DNA of 64,000 bases from Bacteroidota bacterium. GTDB lineage: Bacteria; Bacteroidota; Bacteroidia; Chitinophagales; Saprospiraceae. A program made the position numbers and the translations under genes. The stretch lies in the NCBI GenBank assembly GCA_016124585.1, contig WGNL01000011.1:62001-126000 (forward strand), read 5' to 3'. Shown piece by piece: positions 4,324 to 55,996 of the stretch; positions within the stretch are counted from its first letter, which is position 1; each line of letters begins with the position of its first letter. The notes under the pieces were generated by a model. That model saw only the letters and a list, made by a program, of their open reading frames with translations, made no database searches and was not told the DNA's origin.

Positions 4324-5077
4324 ATTTTACCACTGCCACTTCAAAGTGCATCCCATCCATGCGGCTGAAATGGCCGCCCCAGTAGAATCCATTTTTGTTG
4401 GCAATTGCGACCAATTCACGGACGCTACCTTTTTGCCCAACTAAAGCAGGTACCTGTCCAAGTTTATTCCAAGCATAATTGATGTCGAAGGCCGTGCCGA
4501 ATGAGTGGTTACTCAAAGTGGTCCGGCTTCCCCTCACATACCTCGGAACGTAGGAGCCTTCGTATGTCAGGATATTTTTTATCAAATCTGCTTTTTCCCA
4601 ATCATTAAACAGTGACTGAAGCTGCTTAGCTCCCAGGCGGTGAAACTGGATTTTGCCACTTGGTGGCACGTTTTTCATACCATGCAATTGTGGAATGTCC
4701 ACCCGCACGATGTTTTTATCCGCCCAACCATCTGTGATTACAATTGCTTCCGTACCGTCTCCTGCAGACCTGAACTTGAAATTTCCGAAGATTTTAGCAC
4801 GGGCTGAATTGCCCACAAGTGGCTTGAAACCCGGTTTTGATGGATATTCATAAGCTTCCTTTAAATGGTAGCCAGCCTTAAATGCAGCTAAGTAAGATTT
4901 TGGACCTACGATGCCATCTGCGACTAAACCGTTTGCCTCTTGGAATTTCAAGGTAGCCGCATGGGTTTTCGGGCCGAAATCACCATCTGCCACAATATGA
5001 TTGTTGCCAAGACCGATGAGGAAATATTGCCAGTTCTTTACTTGTGGGGATTTTGAACCCAGTTTGATAGTTTCCAT
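4322..5077 (-). CDS. peptidoglycan-binding domain plus M15 peptidase (endolysin-like)
   Basis: 251 residues without a signal peptide. Residues about 5-60 are a peptidoglycan-binding type 1 domain (VKNWQYFLIGLG, DGDFGPKTHAATLKFQ, VADGIVGPKSYLA). Residues about 170-250 are a LAS-family M15 zinc peptidase of the L-alanyl-D-glutamate or D-Ala-D-Ala type. SNHSFGTAFDIN supplies the first His and Asp ligands, FYWGGHFSRMDGMHFE the final HFE motif. It should cleave the peptide stems of peptidoglycan. Lack of a leader suggests release by lysis, a holin-like route or a contractile device rather than Sec export. The adjacent convergent gene resembles a phage antirepressor, so a phage origin is plausible. 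Confidence 0.85.
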   Translation of the reverse strand: METIKLGSKSPQVKNWQYFLIGLGNNHIVADGDFGPKTHAATLKFQEANGLVADGIVGPKSYLAAFKAGYHLKEAYEYPSKPGFKPLVGNSARAKIFGNFKFRSAGDGTEAIVITDGWADKNIVRVDIPQLHGMKNVPPSGKIQFHRLGAKQLQSLFNDWEKADLIKNILTYEGSYVPRYVRGSRTTLSNHSFGTAFDINYAWNKLGQVPALVGQKGSVRELVAIANKNGFYWGGHFSRMDGMHFEVAVVK

Positions 5078-5220
5078 ATTTGAAAGGACTTTTGGTTTAA
5101 AATTGGGTGCAACTTAATTGTATTATTTGATATTTTGAAAAGATATGGATTGTAAGCTACAAATAATACATGTTTTCATATTTGAATGGGTAGTCACGGC
5201 TTTTGTAGGTTGATTGACAG

Positions 5221-5248
5221 TTGAGGGCGCTACAATATGGTACATTTG
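5221..5248 (+). promoter_or_regulatory. Bacteroidota sigma-A promoter for the M14 carboxypeptidase
   Basis: TACATTTG at 5241-5248 is a perfect TAnnTTTG -7 box. TTG at 5221-5223 lies 17 bases upstream as the -33 element. The start codon is 39 bases downstream of the box. Confidence 0.7.
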
Positions 5249-5286
5249 CGCCCTTTCAAACACACTAATTCAATAATCAATACACC

Positions 5287-7674
5287 ATGCGGAAAATCCT
5301 ATTCCTTTGTTTCCTTTCCATTTCCATTTCATTATCAGCCCAACAATTTTCAAGAGTAAAAATCAAATTTGATGAAAACCAGACTTTGGAAAAATTGGCT
5401 GGTCTAGGCTTAGAAGTTGACCATGGTAAACTACAACCGGGCAAGTATTTGATTGGTGAATTTTCTTCAACTGAAATTGACCAAATGAGGTCAGCGGGGT
5501 TTAGCACGGAAGTTCTCATCCCTGATTTAGTTGCTCACCGCCAATTCCTGGAACAGCAAATTGCTTCTACCGAAGAGCGTGTATTGCCACCTTGCGAACC
5601 CCAACAACCCACCAATTACCAGACTCCTGCCAACTATCACGCTGGTACAATGGGAGGTTACTTCAAATACCAAGAGATGTTGGATATGGTCGATCAAATG
5701 GCGGCTTTGTACCCAAATCTTGTGAAAGCACGGACCCCCATCACCAATGCGTACACCACGATTGAAGGCCGACCGATTTATTGGCTAAAAATATCAGACA
5801 ACCCCAATGTGGATGAGGACGAGCCAGAGGTACTGTATGATGCCGTTCACCATGCTCGTGAGCCTAACAGCATGTCGCAGCTGATATTTTACATGTGGTA
5901 TTTACTGGAAAACTATGACACTGACCCTGAAATCAAATACCTCGTCGACAACACAGAAATGTATTTCGTGCCTTGCGTGAACCCAGATGGGTATATTTAC
6001 AATGAAACCACCAATCCAAATGGCAGTGGTTTCTGGCGTAAAAACCGTCGTGATAATGGAAATGGCACATTTGGAATTGACCTAAATCGCAATTATGGTT
6101 ATAAATGGGGCTTCGACAATTCTGGCTCCTCGCCAAATCCAAACTCCGAGACATACCGTGGTACTGAACCGTTTTCTGAGCCCGAAACCCAAATGATGCG
6201 GGATTTTTGCCTTGCTCACCATTTTCAGATTGCGCTCAATTATCACACGTACGGTAACCTGCTCATCTATCCGTGGGGTTGGGTTGATGGTGCTTCACCA
6301 GACCATGCCACATTCTCCACTTTTGGCCCATATCTTACCCGTGAAAATGATTTTCTCACTGGCTTCGGCTCTCAGACCGTGGGCTACACCACGAATGGCG
6401 ACTCTGACGATTGGATGTACGGCGAGCAATCCACTAAACCAAAAATATACTCCATGACCCCGGAAGTTGGCCCCGATAATTACGGATTCTGGCCGCCTTC
6501 CATAGCCATTGATGACCTCAACCGTTCGAATATGACAATGAACCTGACTGCAGCGCACCTAGTATTGAATTTTGGGGTGCTGACACCAGGTGGCGATCGT
6601 TTTTTGAGTCAACAGCAAGGCTCTATCCTGTTTTCCTTGAAAAAAATGGGGCTAGCTTCTGGGCAGCTAACTGTCAAGCTGGAGCCTGTTAGCAGCAATA
6701 TCGCAGCAGTTGGAAACCCTATCAACTATGGCATGTTCCACTTAGAAGAAGCATCGAACAGTATACCGTTTACCCTAAAATCTACGGTGCAGGATGGCGA
6801 GCTAGTGCAATTTAACTTGGTGCTGGACAATGGCCTTTACCAATGGCGTACCCCAGTTGAGCGAGTTTATACCAGCCTTGTTCAAACAAATTTCTTGGAC
6901 GCAGCTGACAATGGAAACAACTGGAACACTGGTGGTTGGTCACTTACAAATGAGCAGTACCATTCAGCACCAACAAGTTTTACAGATTCTCCAAATGGTC
7001 AGTACGACTCAAATTCCATTACTGAAATTGAATTAAAAAATCCGGTAAAAGTAAAAGATGCGACCAGTGTAGTATTGAGCTATTGGGCAAAATGGGATAT
7101 TGAGGAGGATGAAGATTATGTGCAAATTTTGGGCAATTTCAATAATATCGGATACCAGTCGCTTTGCGGAAAATACACAGAGGCAGGTACCGATCAGCAG
7201 GTCTTCCTTGAGCCACTTTATGACGGACATCAGCAAAATTGGGTGCGGGAAGAAATCGATTTGACCGAATGGCTGGTGATTGGCGATAGCGTAAATTTCA
7301 AGTTTGCCTTTAAGTTGGTATCTGACGAGGCCATCCAAGAAGATGGGTTTTATTTTGATGACTTTGAGCTAAAGGTTGTCAAAAATGGCGGCACTACCAG
7401 CACTTTGGATTTTGATACTTCCGATTTTACGCTTACCACACGGCCAAATCCAGCCAGTGACCATGTCATCATTGATTTAAAAGGCGAAAACATACCTAAT
7501 TTGCCAATGCAGTTGCAGGTTTTCAATGCCTTAGGACAATTGGTTGATCAGCAGGTTTTTAGTGGCCAGATTTACAGGTTGGAAACTGGAAATTGGGAGC
7601 AAGGCTTTTACCAATATCGAATTTCGGTAGGTGGTAATTGGCTTCCTGCTGGCCGATTCTTGATTTCAAAATAA
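5287..7674 (+). CDS. secreted M14 zinc carboxypeptidase with T9SS sorting domain
   Basis: 795 residues. Signal peptide MRKILFLCFLSISISLSAQ. Residues about 20-100 look like a propeptide. The M14 catalytic domain covers about 120-430. Zinc ligands are His189 and Glu192 in HHAREPN and His320 in LNYHTYGN; substrate-binding NPDGY and DLNRNYGYKWG are present; the catalytic base is probably Glu393 in TPEVGPDNYGFW. A jelly-roll module with DGFYFDDFELKVV follows (about 540-700), and the last about 75 residues are a type A sorting domain (RPNPASDHVIIDL, GFYQYRISVGG). It presumably removes C-terminal residues from extracellular proteins or peptides. It stands alone behind its own promoter. Confidence 0.93.
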   Translation: MRKILFLCFLSISISLSAQQFSRVKIKFDENQTLEKLAGLGLEVDHGKLQPGKYLIGEFSSTEIDQMRSAGFSTEVLIPDLVAHRQFLEQQIASTEERVLPPCEPQQPTNYQTPANYHAGTMGGYFKYQEMLDMVDQMAALYPNLVKARTPITNAYTTIEGRPIYWLKISDNPNVDEDEPEVLYDAVHHAREPNSMSQLIFYMWYLLENYDTDPEIKYLVDNTEMYFVPCVNPDGYIYNETTNPNGSGFWRKNRRDNGNGTFGIDLNRNYGYKWGFDNSGSSPNPNSETYRGTEPFSEPETQMMRDFCLAHHFQIALNYHTYGNLLIYPWGWVDGASPDHATFSTFGPYLTRENDFLTGFGSQTVGYTTNGDSDDWMYGEQSTKPKIYSMTPEVGPDNYGFWPPSIAIDDLNRSNMTMNLTAAHLVLNFGVLTPGGDRFLSQQQGSILFSLKKMGLASGQLTVKLEPVSSNIAAVGNPINYGMFHLEEASNSIPFTLKSTVQDGELVQFNLVLDNGLYQWRTPVERVYTSLVQTNFLDAADNGNNWNTGGWSLTNEQYHSAPTSFTDSPNGQYDSNSITEIELKNPVKVKDATSVVLSYWAKWDIEEDEDYVQILGNFNNIGYQSLCGKYTEAGTDQQVFLEPLYDGHQQNWVREEIDLTEWLVIGDSVNFKFAFKLVSDEAIQEDGFYFDDFELKVVKNGGTTSTLDFDTSDFTLTTRPNPASDHVIIDLKGENIPNLPMQLQVFNALGQLVDQQVFSGQIYRLETGNWEQGFYQYRISVGGNWLPAGRFLISK

Positions 7675-31782: not shown

Positions 31783-33066
31783 ATGAAAAAACTGGCGCTA
31801 CACTGGCAAATTCTGATTGGTATTGCAATAGGTATTCTTTTTGGGCTTTTGGGGGCAGAGATGGGATGGAGCAGCTTTATCCAGGACTGGATAAAACCCT
31901 TTGGCACCATCTTCATCAATTTGCTGAAAATGATAGCTGTGCCGCTCATCGTGACTTCGCTCGTCACCGGAGTGGCTGACCTCAAGGACATCCGCAAGCT
32001 CGGCAAAATGGGTGGGCGTACCTTCGGCATCTACGTGCTGACAACTGCCGTCGCCATCAGCGTTGGCCTCATTGTCGTCAATATCATCCAGCCTGGGCAT
32101 TTCATCCAACCGGAGACCCGTGAAATGATGTCCACTACCTTTGGTGCCAGTGCCGCCGATAAAATCAAGGCGGCCGATGATGTACGGAAAAGCGGCCCGC
32201 TCCAGCCCCTCGTCGATATGGTTCCCGATAACCTCTTCAAGGCTGCCACGGAGAATTCCAGCATGTTGAAGGTCATTTTCTTTGTCGTTTTCTTTGGCAT
32301 CGGGCTCATTCTCATACCTGCCGAAAAAGCCAAACCCGTTGTGGATTTCTTTGGCGGTGCCAATGAGGTCATCATGAAATTGATTGACATCATCATGCTT
32401 TTTGCACCAATCGGTGTATTTGCACTGCTGGCCTCGCTCATCGTGGAATTGCCTTCCACAGACCTACTGGTGGCACTGCTTGGCTATTCCTTCTGTGTGC
32501 TGCTTGGCCTTGCTATCCTCATTTTTGGCTTCTACCCATTTTTGGTTAAAACCTTCGCAAAAAAGGGTTACGGCTTTTTTCTAAAGGGTATCGCCCCAGC
32601 GCAATTGCTGGCGTTCAGTACCAGTTCAAGTGCCGCCACACTTCCCGTTTCGATGGAACGTGCAGAGGAACACCTCGGTGTGGATGAGGAAGTGGCCAGC
32701 TTCGTGCTGCCCATCGGTGCCACCATCAACATGGACGGCACAGCGCTTTACCAAGGCGTAGCGGCGGTATTCATCGCACAGGCTTTCGGCATGAATCTCG
32801 GCCTTGGGGCGCAGCTCGGCATCATCCTAACGGCGACGCTGGCCAGTATCGGCACGGCAGCCGTGCCTGGGGCAGGCATGGTCATGCTCGTCATCGTGCT
32901 GGCGCAAGCGGGCATCCCAGAGGCTGGCCTTGCGCTCATCTTCGCTGTTGACCGTCCCTTAGACATGTGCCGGACCATTGCCAATGTGACCAGCGACCTC
33001 TGTGTCTCCATGATAGTGGCGAAGAGTTTGGATAAATTGGGTGAGCCTATGCCGAAGGATTTGTAA
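31783..33066 (+). CDS. dicarboxylate/amino acid:cation symporter (DAACS family)
   Basis: 427 residues with eight membrane helices and two re-entrant loops. Family motifs: FINLLKMIAVPLIVTSLVTG, the first hairpin STSSSAATLPVSMERAE, GATINMDGTALYQGVAAVFI (NMDGT, cation and substrate site), GTAAVPGAGMVMLVIVLAQAG and DRPLDMCRTIANVTSDLC. It imports glutamate, aspartate or C4-dicarboxylates with H+ or Na+. A long loop around residues 110-150 is typical for Bacteroidota members. Its 3' side is unusual: the transcript would run directly into the repeat array at 33087-33294. Confidence 0.95.
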   Translation: MKKLALHWQILIGIAIGILFGLLGAEMGWSSFIQDWIKPFGTIFINLLKMIAVPLIVTSLVTGVADLKDIRKLGKMGGRTFGIYVLTTAVAISVGLIVVNIIQPGHFIQPETREMMSTTFGASAADKIKAADDVRKSGPLQPLVDMVPDNLFKAATENSSMLKVIFFVVFFGIGLILIPAEKAKPVVDFFGGANEVIMKLIDIIMLFAPIGVFALLASLIVELPSTDLLVALLGYSFCVLLGLAILIFGFYPFLVKTFAKKGYGFFLKGIAPAQLLAFSTSSSAATLPVSMERAEEHLGVDEEVASFVLPIGATINMDGTALYQGVAAVFIAQAFGMNLGLGAQLGIILTATLASIGTAAVPGAGMVMLVIVLAQAGIPEAGLALIFAVDRPLDMCRTIANVTSDLCVSMIVAKSLDKLGEPMPKDL

Positions 33067-33086
33067 GCTTGGGTATTTCCTATTTA

Positions 33087-33294
33087 GGGTCTTACCAACC
33101 CCAATGGAGGACTTCACCAACCCCGTGGATGGGGTCCTATAACCCCATCCACGGGGTTGGTGAACCACAAATATGTGGTCAAGTGACCATAAATTTGGGG
33201 TCTCATAACCCCAGTTTTGGGTTTGTACCACCCCATTGGTGTGGTTGTACGACCCCACGCTTGTGGTCATATAACCCCATCGTTGGGGTTGACA
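33087..33294. repeat. rigid 22-nt-period array with complementary conserved blocks
   Basis: Nine full units of exactly 22 bases plus a partial tenth, starting at 33087, 33109, 33131, 33153, 33175, 33197, 33219, 33241, 33263 and 33285, with no insertion or deletion. Each unit reads GKGGTY, four variable bases, AACCCCA (first A sometimes G or C), then five variable bases. The A-C-C core is invariant in all nine units. The two conserved blocks are complementary, so every unit can form a hairpin with its neighbour, and exceptions often compensate: AACCAC of unit 4 faces GTGGTC of unit 5, GACC of unit 5 faces GGTC of unit 6. The unit length is not a multiple of three. It lies in the presumed 3' UTR of the symporter gene, before the hairpin at 33361. 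Confidence 0.92.
33113..33164. repeat. perfect 23-bp inverted repeat inside the 22-nt array
   Basis: The arms at 33113-33135 and 33142-33164 are exact reverse complements around the 6-base loop CCTATA. They span units 2 to 4, so even the otherwise variable bases of these units are complementary (GTGGAT faces ATCCAC). Confidence 0.95.
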
Positions 33295-33360
33295 GATTAC
33301 TGCTTTAAAGTGGTGAAATTGTTTATTTCGCTGAAAATCAAATATTTGTGCAAAAAAATA

Positions 33361-33385
33361 GGGCTCCCGAGTACATCGGGAGCCC
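33361..33385. terminator. bidirectional intrinsic terminator
   Basis: GGGCTCCCGA (33361-33370) and TCGGGAGCCC (33376-33385) form a perfect 10-bp stem with loop GTACA. On the plus strand TTCCTTTT follows; on the minus strand TATTTTTTTG follows. It ends the symporter-plus-array transcript and the opposing gene at 33411. Confidence 0.9.
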
Positions 33386-33410
33386 TTCCTTTTAATACAA
33401 ACAAGCCTGA

Positions 33411-33929
33411 TCAGGTTGTAGGTGAGTCGTTGGTATCTGATGGCAAATTGCTTCCCGCATTGGCATCATAAGTGGAGCTGTTTTTTTCGAAGAACTGGGC
33501 AAGCTCGGTGCGCTTTTTCTGAAAGCCAGGTGCCTGTGTGCCAGCCTTGTACTTGGTGTAATCATAATCCGTCAGGGCATTCTGGTAATTGTCCCAGTCA
33601 TGGAGCATCTTGGCATTGACCATGCGCTCCACGAGGCTGAGAAATCGGATGCTGCGGGTCTCGAAGAAGAGACGGTCTTTAAGGTCGGCCTCGAACTCCA
33701 CCCAGTCCACATCGGGGCTGCTGAGGTCGGGCTGTGACACCCTAAAATCCCAGACCTTGTTCACCACAAGTTTGTTCTTTTCGTGGATGCTGCCGTAGCG
33801 CTGGCGTTCCTCCGGTGTAAGGTTGGCTACTTTCCCCATCAATTTAGCCTCGATAAGCTCGATGGCCGCATCAATGTCTGTAATATCAGACTCGCTGACA
33901 TGCTGCTGAATAAGATTGTGAAGTGGCAT
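33411..33929 (-). CDS. unrecognised helical protein, lineage-type orphan
   Basis: 172 residues from ATG 33929 (MPLHNLIQQHVSESDITDID); the frame is open 25 codons further but those codons look non-coding. No signal peptide or membrane segment; mostly charged helix (AAIELIEAKLMGKVANLTPE, ERQRYGSIHEKNKLVVNKVW, HDWDNYQNALTDYDYTKYKA) with a polar disordered tail (SSTYDANAGSNLPSDTNDSP). I have the impression of a Bacteroidota-restricted family often present in several copies, but cannot assign a domain. It ends at the strong terminator that also closes the 22-nt array. Function unknown. Confidence 0.75.
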   Translation of the reverse strand: MPLHNLIQQHVSESDITDIDAAIELIEAKLMGKVANLTPEERQRYGSIHEKNKLVVNKVWDFRVSQPDLSSPDVDWVEFEADLKDRLFFETRSIRFLSLVERMVNAKMLHDWDNYQNALTDYDYTKYKAGTQAPGFQKKRTELAQFFEKNSSTYDANAGSNLPSDTNDSPTT

Positions 33930-54931: not shown

Positions 54932-55146
54932 TGGCTAAAAATGCGGTCTTCTAGGGGTTTAAAACGTCATCATAGACCTACAATGTCCGCTTTCTATCCG
55001 ACAATAGGGGCATTGATGACCTACAACGCCTGCTTTCTATCCGACAACGGGGTCATTGATGGCCTACTACGCTGCCTTTCTATGCTACAATGAGGCTATT
55101 GTTGACCTATCATGCCCACTTTCTAGGTGATAAAGGAGCCTTGTAC
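54932..55146. repeat. rigid 43-nt-period array of paired 22+21-nt half-units
   Basis: Five units of exactly 43 bases starting at 54932, 54975, 55018, 55061 and 55104, with no insertion or deletion. The first half (22 nt) reads about GACCTACAAY, five or six variable bases, then CTTTCTA; the second half (21 nt) reads about TCCGACAAYRGGG, variable base, CATTGAT. The first unit is the most diverged. Units differ mainly in the middle of each half (TGTCCG, CGCCTG, CGCTGC, TGCCCA in half one). The period is not a multiple of three, and the overlapping 95-codon ORF shows no protein signature. It ends 75 bases before the promoter of the gene at 55268. Confidence 0.85.
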
Positions 55147-55220
55147 CAACTTTTTACAGGCCATTCAAAACAAAATAACAAAAAAGGCACAAAAAATATT
55201 TTTTACAATTTATTTTTATT

Positions 55221-55267: not shown

Positions 55268-55996
55268 ATGGAAACACCCAGAATCTATTATTTCCCGCCC
55301 ACTCCATCTGAGTATCCGGCATGGCTGGCCAATTTCTACACGGTATTGGATGCCAACAAAGTATTGCTCGGTATTACGGTAGACGTGCTGGCCCGAGTGA
55401 ACAAGTTCAACCTTGGCCTCGGCTACTACGGTAATTGTATTACTACTTTTGATGGGTTTCTCAGCAAATGTTACAGCAACCGCAATATCATGATATATGG
55501 CGACCCTGCGAATCTAGAACTTGAACTGACAGAATATGAGCCTGTGCCTGCTGGCCCAGCAGTGCCAGCCGATCAGGTGCCGCCCAATGAGCATGCTTGG
55601 ATTACCTCCTTGGTGGCTAACCTTCGTACCAATCCTAATATGAATGCTACCCTGTCCAAAGCATTGGGCTTGGATAATAGGCCAATTTCTAAATATGAGG
55701 ATGGTGACATGCCACTGTTAAAAGGTAAAATCGTTAATGGCCAAGCTCAATTGAACTGCCCTCTGCGGAATTTCAAGGGATATGAAGTATGGCGGCAGGA
55801 TACACCGGGTGGTTCTTTTGTCAAGATTGGCATTAGTTTGTCCCGATATTATTTGGATATAACTGAGCTACCGGAGGGGGTGAACACTGCACAATATGCT
55901 TATATTATACGCATGATTGGCAATGATAACGTACCAGTTGGTTCACCTTCCAATGAAGTGACCTTGGTTGTTTATCGCTCTGTGGTACCTGTATGA
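55268..55996 (+). CDS. unrecognised two-domain protein with a fibronectin III-like C-terminus
   Basis: 242 residues, no signal peptide. Residues 1-90 are helical with aromatic positions (YYFPPTPSEYPAWLANFYTV, LLGITVDVLARVNKFNLGLG). A Pro/Ala-rich linker lies around 93-112. About 112-150 is a helical stretch (ITSLVANLRTNPNMNATLSK). About 150-240 looks like one FN3-type sandwich (GQAQLNCPLRNFKGYEVWRQ, AQYAYIIRMIGNDNVPVGSP). I have the impression of a multi-copy Bacteroidota family but no function. Codon usage is like the chromosome, unlike the AT-rich genes before it. The 43-nt array lies just upstream. Confidence 0.78.
   Translation: METPRIYYFPPTPSEYPAWLANFYTVLDANKVLLGITVDVLARVNKFNLGLGYYGNCITTFDGFLSKCYSNRNIMIYGDPANLELELTEYEPVPAGPAVPADQVPPNEHAWITSLVANLRTNPNMNATLSKALGLDNRPISKYEDGDMPLLKGKIVNGQAQLNCPLRNFKGYEVWRQDTPGGSFVKIGISLSRYYLDITELPEGVNTAQYAYIIRMIGNDNVPVGSPSNEVTLVVYRSVVPV

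Follow-up and report, generated by a model that had tools for sequence, protein, structure and literature searches.

What is a run of short, dissimilar but evenly spaced DNA units doing between two genes of a Bacteroidota genome, and to which of the genes does it belong? The question is raised by an array of 22-bp units in a 64,000-nt stretch of a Saprospiraceae contig, here called the window, whose features are collected in Table 1. The array lies between the stop codon of a symporter gene (31783-33066) and a terminator-like hairpin readable on both strands. A first-pass annotation of the window had offered two readings, RNA hairpins lined up in the symporter 3' UTR or helically phased DNA sites; the second is the better option and the first did not survive comparison with related genomes. 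It had also overlooked the coupling of the array to the minus-strand gene at 33411-33929 and a second array in the window. The array is one half of a two-part locus, the partner of that minus-strand gene and not a 3'-UTR feature of the symporter. It exemplifies a widespread type of bacterial locus, apparently not described before, that combines a small orphan helical protein with DNA sites about two helical turns apart.

Table 1. Coordinates of the features discussed (positions in the window).
Feature	Position	Strand	Description
Array	33087..33299	.	Nine 22-bp units (starts 33087, 33109, ... 33263) and a 15-bp partial unit
Perfect inverted repeat within array	33113..33164	.	Arms 33113-33135 / 33142-33164, 23 bp each, 6-nt centre
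Terminator-like hairpin	33360..33386	- (found on both strands)	Between partner gene and array
Partner gene, array-linked family A	33411..33929	-	Orphan all-helical 172-aa protein (MPLHNLI...)
Second array, same kind (period 43)	~54933..55154	.	Upstream of family-2 gene
Family-2 gene	55268..55996	+	242 aa, no Pfam match; most testable homologues with 5' arrays

The nine full units (33087-33284) follow one another at exactly 22 bp, as had been claimed, and the partial unit occupies 33285-33299. The consensus, GGGGTt-nnan-AACCCCA-nnnn-T, bears out the description of two conserved, mutually complementary blocks (GGGGTt and AACCCCA) with two freely varying windows between the blocks. Two dyads about 11 bp apart can be read in each unit. 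Identity at lag 22 was 0.581, compared with a maximum of 0.402 for the best of lags 10-60 in 2000 two-base-block shuffles; Tandem Repeats Finder reported only 2.3 copies because the units are so dissimilar. The further claim that several deviations compensate one another found no statistical support: blocks paired within units at 40 of 54 positions versus 39.6 when the blocks were permuted (P 0.53), and between units at 44 of 54 versus 41.5 (P 0.15). The perfect inverted repeat extends over the "variable" windows too. It resembles the product of quasi-palindrome correction, and probably arose by template switching of this kind. The RNA fold of 33080-33300 has a z of -9.8 versus dinucleotide shuffles and is 8.3 SD better with DNA parameters; the strength of the fold is in part due to this 23-bp inverted repeat. 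Rfam covariance models detected only a tRNA at gathering threshold in the whole window.

When a relaxed form of the pattern (up to 3 mismatches) was searched in 14 genomes of the genus, three places were found beyond the window, two in G006 and one in G004. Both G006 places are arrays built like the window array, and the G004 match is not visibly an array. The first G006 array (L024) lies 3' of a homologue of the minus-strand window gene. The second (L026, ~1445-1640) has no such gene beside it; its flanking sequence is shared with L024, and it looks like a duplicate.

The family of the minus-strand gene, here family A, was found in 38 of 395 genomes of the class, with up to 6 matches per genome; of the 204 relatives confirmed among GTDB contigs, 80 were kept. 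Homologues are present in, among others, Flavobacterium saliperosum (L076) and F. aquatile (L071 and L135). Gene and array co-occur and diverge together. An array with a period of 21/22 bp was present within about 1 kb of 140 of 161 distinct Bacteroidota family-A loci, a count that leaves out second copies of the same place and a Thiodictyon plasmid copy. The array was 3' of the gene at 123 loci and 5' at 17; 13 further loci were weak (scores of 0.46-0.50) and 8 had none, so that 21 loci were without a clear array. Among shuffled flanks (n=320), 0.9% reached 0.5 and 6.9% reached 0.46. Under a stricter test, in which all other periods from 6 to 60 had to score lower at the same place as a guard against short repeats aliasing to 21, an array was retained at 137/161 loci (122 3', 15 5' only), leaving 24 without, compared with 3/148 control stretches at least 1.5 kb away. 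For the first 117 loci, the best period between 10 and 60 was 21, 22, 42, 43 or 44 in 94/116 3' flanks (700 nt) and 32/115 5' flanks, versus 6/72 and 14/76 in controls farther out; scores of at least 0.5 were reached in 90/116 and 17/115 flanks, versus 2/72 and 1/76 controls. In the gammaproteobacterial plasmid homologue (Thiodictyon) no array was found between the homologue and the next gene. The window genome has five family-A copies, one of them broken, all with periodicity of the 21/22/42 type, which in L034 (0.49) and L183 (0.50) is at the threshold.

Similarity between arrays climbs with protein identity, while control DNA remains flat; arrays of distant loci, at protein identities under 50%, have 5-mer cosines of 0.16-0.23. 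Four sets of four loci were compared, only one of which had close orthologues at two loci in a single pair of genomes. In this genome pair, with two copies each, the arrays of orthologues scored 0.75 and 0.85 and all paralogue pairs 0.32-0.33. In another set the arrays of a 91%-identical pair scored only 0.41, and the remaining pairs 0.23-0.31.

The 172-aa window protein had no convincing match in Pfam, NCBIfam, PHROGs or PADLOC, and no sequence relative in PDB up to E 1. The best matches of the family were weak: a PHROG helicase loader (0.005), a PADLOC candidate (0.0062), DUF6730 in 10 of 62 members (0.0092) and, in single distant members, Gag_p15 (2.4e-4) and an NCBIfam model (8.3e-4). The predicted structure of the window protein (pLDDT 85.8, pTM 0.67) contains only helices, one of them 55 residues long, and has a tail of low confidence; no significant structural relative was found. 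By our reading of the model, residues 39-45 and 50-65 may form a helix-turn-helix-like pair, in which the conserved R42, K53, N57 and K58 are suggested as a candidate contact surface.

Family-A genes carry arrays in varied gene neighbourhoods. When flanking ORFs of at least 55 aa (from 3 kb of flank at most of L071-L150 and 1.5 kb elsewhere) were clustered at E 1e-5, no partner family recurred beyond lineage synteny; the sole NTPase-like neighbour, RsgA-like by eye, occurs at 6 loci which all have the same neighbours. In one subfamily (L038, L056, L059, L070, L182) an 81-aa gene (MKKLSVEEAK.. / MEILNEEQSK..) recurs past the array; three of these genes had no Pfam match above cut-off. In a second subfamily (L045, L046, L047, L050) the array is followed by a gene of 117-124 aa that is helix-turn-helix-like by eye. 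At L055, a family-A locus without a clear array, the 3' frame starts Cas9-like by eye.

The arrays are under a spacing constraint, and spacing is kept far better than sequence. When all steps from 15 to 28 bp were equally allowed, 780 unit-to-unit steps were of 21 bp and 285 of 22 bp, together 1065 of 1228; no peak at 21/22 was seen in 72 control stretches. In the most diverged arrays 334 of 410 steps are still 21 or 22 bp, and the spacing is therefore not just a trace of fresh copying. The motif itself is locus-specific and drifts fast: an array has 5-21 units, which at many loci share little sequence, and between orthologues 80-99% alike in protein the arrays differ at 30% of aligned sites. 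Gaps per substitution, from pairs that are not independent, were 0.067 in arrays, 0.219 in the 5' flank of the gene and 0.008 in the gene, so that by the same non-independent pairs the arrays have 3.3 times fewer than the 5' flank. The first-pass attribution of the array to selection on spacing, and not to recent duplication, is thus supported across relatives by step sizes and by the few gaps per substitution. A distance of 21-22 bp is two turns of B-DNA.

Arrays of this kind also accompany other genes. Scanning 464 kb of the window genome turned up eight places scoring at least 0.52, a density near one per 60 kb. Of these, one falls within a long reading frame and a second scores higher at a different period; the remaining six are the window array, the second array of Table 1, an array upstream of a gene of family 3, and three that adjoin other genes, of which one is readable into the next frame. 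For family 2, 19 places were found and 17 tested, two being set aside as a second piece and a likely duplicate, and 10 of the 13 homologues with a usable 5' flank have a 5' array. The family-3 example (L209) has a 21/42-bp array at 5033-5290 upstream of a gene at 5349-6470 with a C-terminal carboxypeptidase-regulatory-like domain. Family 3 has eight matches in the window genome; of 56 places found, 30 were fetched and tested, and five whose match is confined to the C-terminal carboxypeptidase-regulatory region were left out, although one of the five reaches 0.51. Family 3 proper has an array at 15/25 places, 14 of them 5'. No sequence similarity was detected among families A, 2 and 3. Genomes with family 3 proper also have family A in 14 of 20 cases (hypergeometric P 8e-9) and those with family 2 in 8 of 10 (P 6e-6), values that place all 38 A-genomes in the 247, include the window genome, which has all three families, and are uncorrected for kinship. 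In the window genome, 21-bp arrays stand at L210 (10534-11120), L212 (3965-4250) and L213 (292-500); the genes beside these resemble, by eye, those for multihaem cytochromes, a secreted protein and a TonB-dependent receptor, and the L212 array is readable into the next frame.

Does the array act as DNA or as RNA? It might have a promoter of its own and give rise, after processing, to a large number of small structured or guide RNAs bound by the helical protein, in the style of TIGR-Tas or of type III toxin-antitoxin systems. A layout like this one, with a single array next to a single small protein gene and repeats that resemble each other inside a locus but vary across loci, is reported for TIGR (PMC12045711). 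The strong fold of the window array would also suit such RNAs, as would a gene-strand z below -2 in 74% of 108 arrays. However, the two strands fold alike (median z -4.0 and -3.3; no detectable difference, P 0.35), and 15% of the arrays have a gene-strand z above -1, that is, little excess folding or none. G-U pairs are about as common as A-C mismatches (136 versus 150). Of 92 3' arrays, 43 have a terminator-like hairpin in the interval separating them from the gene and 14 have one there on the opposite strand; a hairpin following the array was seen in only 5. Among 34 5' arrays, the Bacteroidota promoter motif TAnnTTTG occurs 7 times in the interval from array to ATG (expected 2.2) and 0 times inside the array (expected 2.4). 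The array seems to lie outside the transcription unit of its gene, and would therefore act as DNA and not as RNA. The repeat is a single 21-22-nt unit, instead of two repeats with two 9-nt spacers. At E 0.1, the Pfam families listed for 62 members (set A4; 25 of 30) and for 14 distant members (set A5; 11) include no Nop family. We consider an RNA array unlikely. Since the strands fold alike, G-U pairs are not in excess and some arrays are unfolded, the data, together with the terminator, promoter-motif and spacing results, favour phased DNA sites on one helix face over RNA hairpins. In 83 of 109 arrays inverted symmetry is stronger than mirror symmetry; a stricter palindrome cut was passed by 28 of 92 3' arrays, in which 1483 pairs were counted versus 1439 after permutation (mean z 0.62, 3/28 above 2), and dyad symmetry is not universal.

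Our preferred reading, to which we give a probability of about 45%, is that a protein oligomer assembles along the array, whose sites are degenerate DNA sequences kept in phase at two helical turns; the phase and the link to the gene are observed directly, and we infer the reader and the function. At a phasing of 21-22 bp each successive dyad would present itself on about the same face of the helix. The oligomer may assemble cooperatively along the array as a nucleoprotein cluster, like initiators on iterons or adaptors on a centromere. Fixed spacing would supply avidity, and single sites may therefore drift. The cluster could serve in marking, tethering or copy control of the locus, or might affect its neighbours. 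The simplest reader would be the elongated helical protein of the locus itself, or a complex containing that protein. Against this reader count the acidity of the family (median pI 5.1 over 157 proteins, 3% above 8), the lack of a convincing match to a DNA-binding family or fold in the libraries searched, and a gene promoter in which no array-like site was found above chance. Counting against the phased-site reading as a whole are the 21 loci without a clear array (24 under the stricter test), the plasmid homologue with none before the next gene, and a dyad symmetry that not all arrays show.

The reader could instead be a common host factor, because unrelated families, the L026 copy and arrays by other genes all have the same type of array. 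A nucleoid protein, a recombinase or the repair machinery would then recognise or create the 21-bp-phased arrays, and the neighbouring proteins would be cargo. Arrays common to three families without sequence similarity, the few arrays that adjoin other genes and the acidic family A all suit such a factor. On the other hand, in the single pair of genomes where this can be read, array similarity goes with the gene lineage instead of with the genome, and distant arrays share so little sequence (the 5-mer cosines given above) that a single sequence-reading factor is hard to see. We regard this explanation as improbable.

More doubtful still is a functionless mutational by-product, that is, a slippage minisatellite with palindromes perfected by template switching. 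Some arrays do consist of near-identical units (e.g. L063, L030), the 23-bp inverted repeat of the window has the look of a corrected quasi-palindrome, and in the relatives L007, L011 and L013 other types of tandem repeat occupy the same intergenic slot in the symporter 3' flank. Against it stand the steps of 21/22 bp in diverged arrays, the depletion of gaps relative to flanking DNA (in pairs that are not independent) and the arrays at 140/161 loci of one gene family. Finally, a hairpin chain in the symporter 3' UTR is very improbable despite the position of the array behind the symporter stop, as no 21/22-type period of at least 0.5 was found in the 3' flanks of 14 symporter-like loci from 12 other genomes of the genus (best score 0.48; 230 nt testable at L008; symporter matches in 13/14 genus genomes, window genome included) and the opposite-strand family carries the array in varied neighbourhoods.

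A broader and slightly more tentative reading is that Bacteroidota have a general, undescribed class of loci, in which several unrelated proteins each recognise their own phased array and build a chromosomal filament or cluster by which the locus marks itself, a system not known to have a counterpart. Selection would keep the phase, and sequence would drift into private, locus-specific codes. A family present in about a tenth of the class genomes searched, and nameless in the protein libraries searched, would then work with a DNA element that is hardly visible to sequence-similarity searches, since what is conserved in it is rhythm, not letters. This would offer a way into the function of several orphan families together, and a natural example of DNA recognition by spacing and avidity instead of by sequence.

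How does the locus compare with known systems? No published description of such a gene-array locus was found in the literature searched. Like iteron origins, of which 22-bp examples exist (R6K), it has direct repeats about two helical turns apart beside a small-protein gene, and the spacing of iteron repeats is found here in the same 1065 of 1228 steps. Unlike iterons, the arrays are on chromosomal contigs, with several paralogous loci in a genome; a terminator-like hairpin often separates gene and array, and at many loci the 5-21 units have little sequence in common. No Rep family was found among the Pfam or NCBIfam matches, and no Rep fold, that would provide the winged-helix initiator of an iteron origin. 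Plasmid centromeres (parC with ParR, tubC with TubR) have phased 10-12-bp half-sites that build a nucleoprotein complex, and phased sites of this type are the likeness here; unlike in ParMRC or TubZRC, no NTPase partner gene recurs in the flanks beyond the synteny of one lineage.

Bacterial minisatellites resemble those loci with near-identical, evidently recent copies, but here spacing is kept while sequence drifts, and the arrays are tied to particular gene families. CRISPR arrays are likewise regularly spaced with variable intervals; the blocks conserved here are of 5-7 nt, the variable windows of 4-6 nt, and there are no long identical repeats. CRISPR was rejected: such arrays have near-identical repeats of some 23-50 nt separated by unique spacers of comparable length, and the units here have only these short blocks in common. 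TIGR loci pair one small protein with a neighbouring array, which may be upstream or downstream, and the repeats are similar inside each locus but not from one locus to the next; some variants are palindromic (PMC12045711). TIGR-Tas features are a Nop-domain protein, two alternating 8-12-nt repeats with 9-nt spacers, and an array transcribed and processed into 36-nt RNAs. The loci here have one 21/22-bp unit, no 9-nt spacer pair, few terminators after the array, strands that fold alike and no Nop match among the Pfam families listed. By the features tested a member of none of these systems, the locus works like iterons or a centromere, through phased sites, in a layout like that of TIGR loci.
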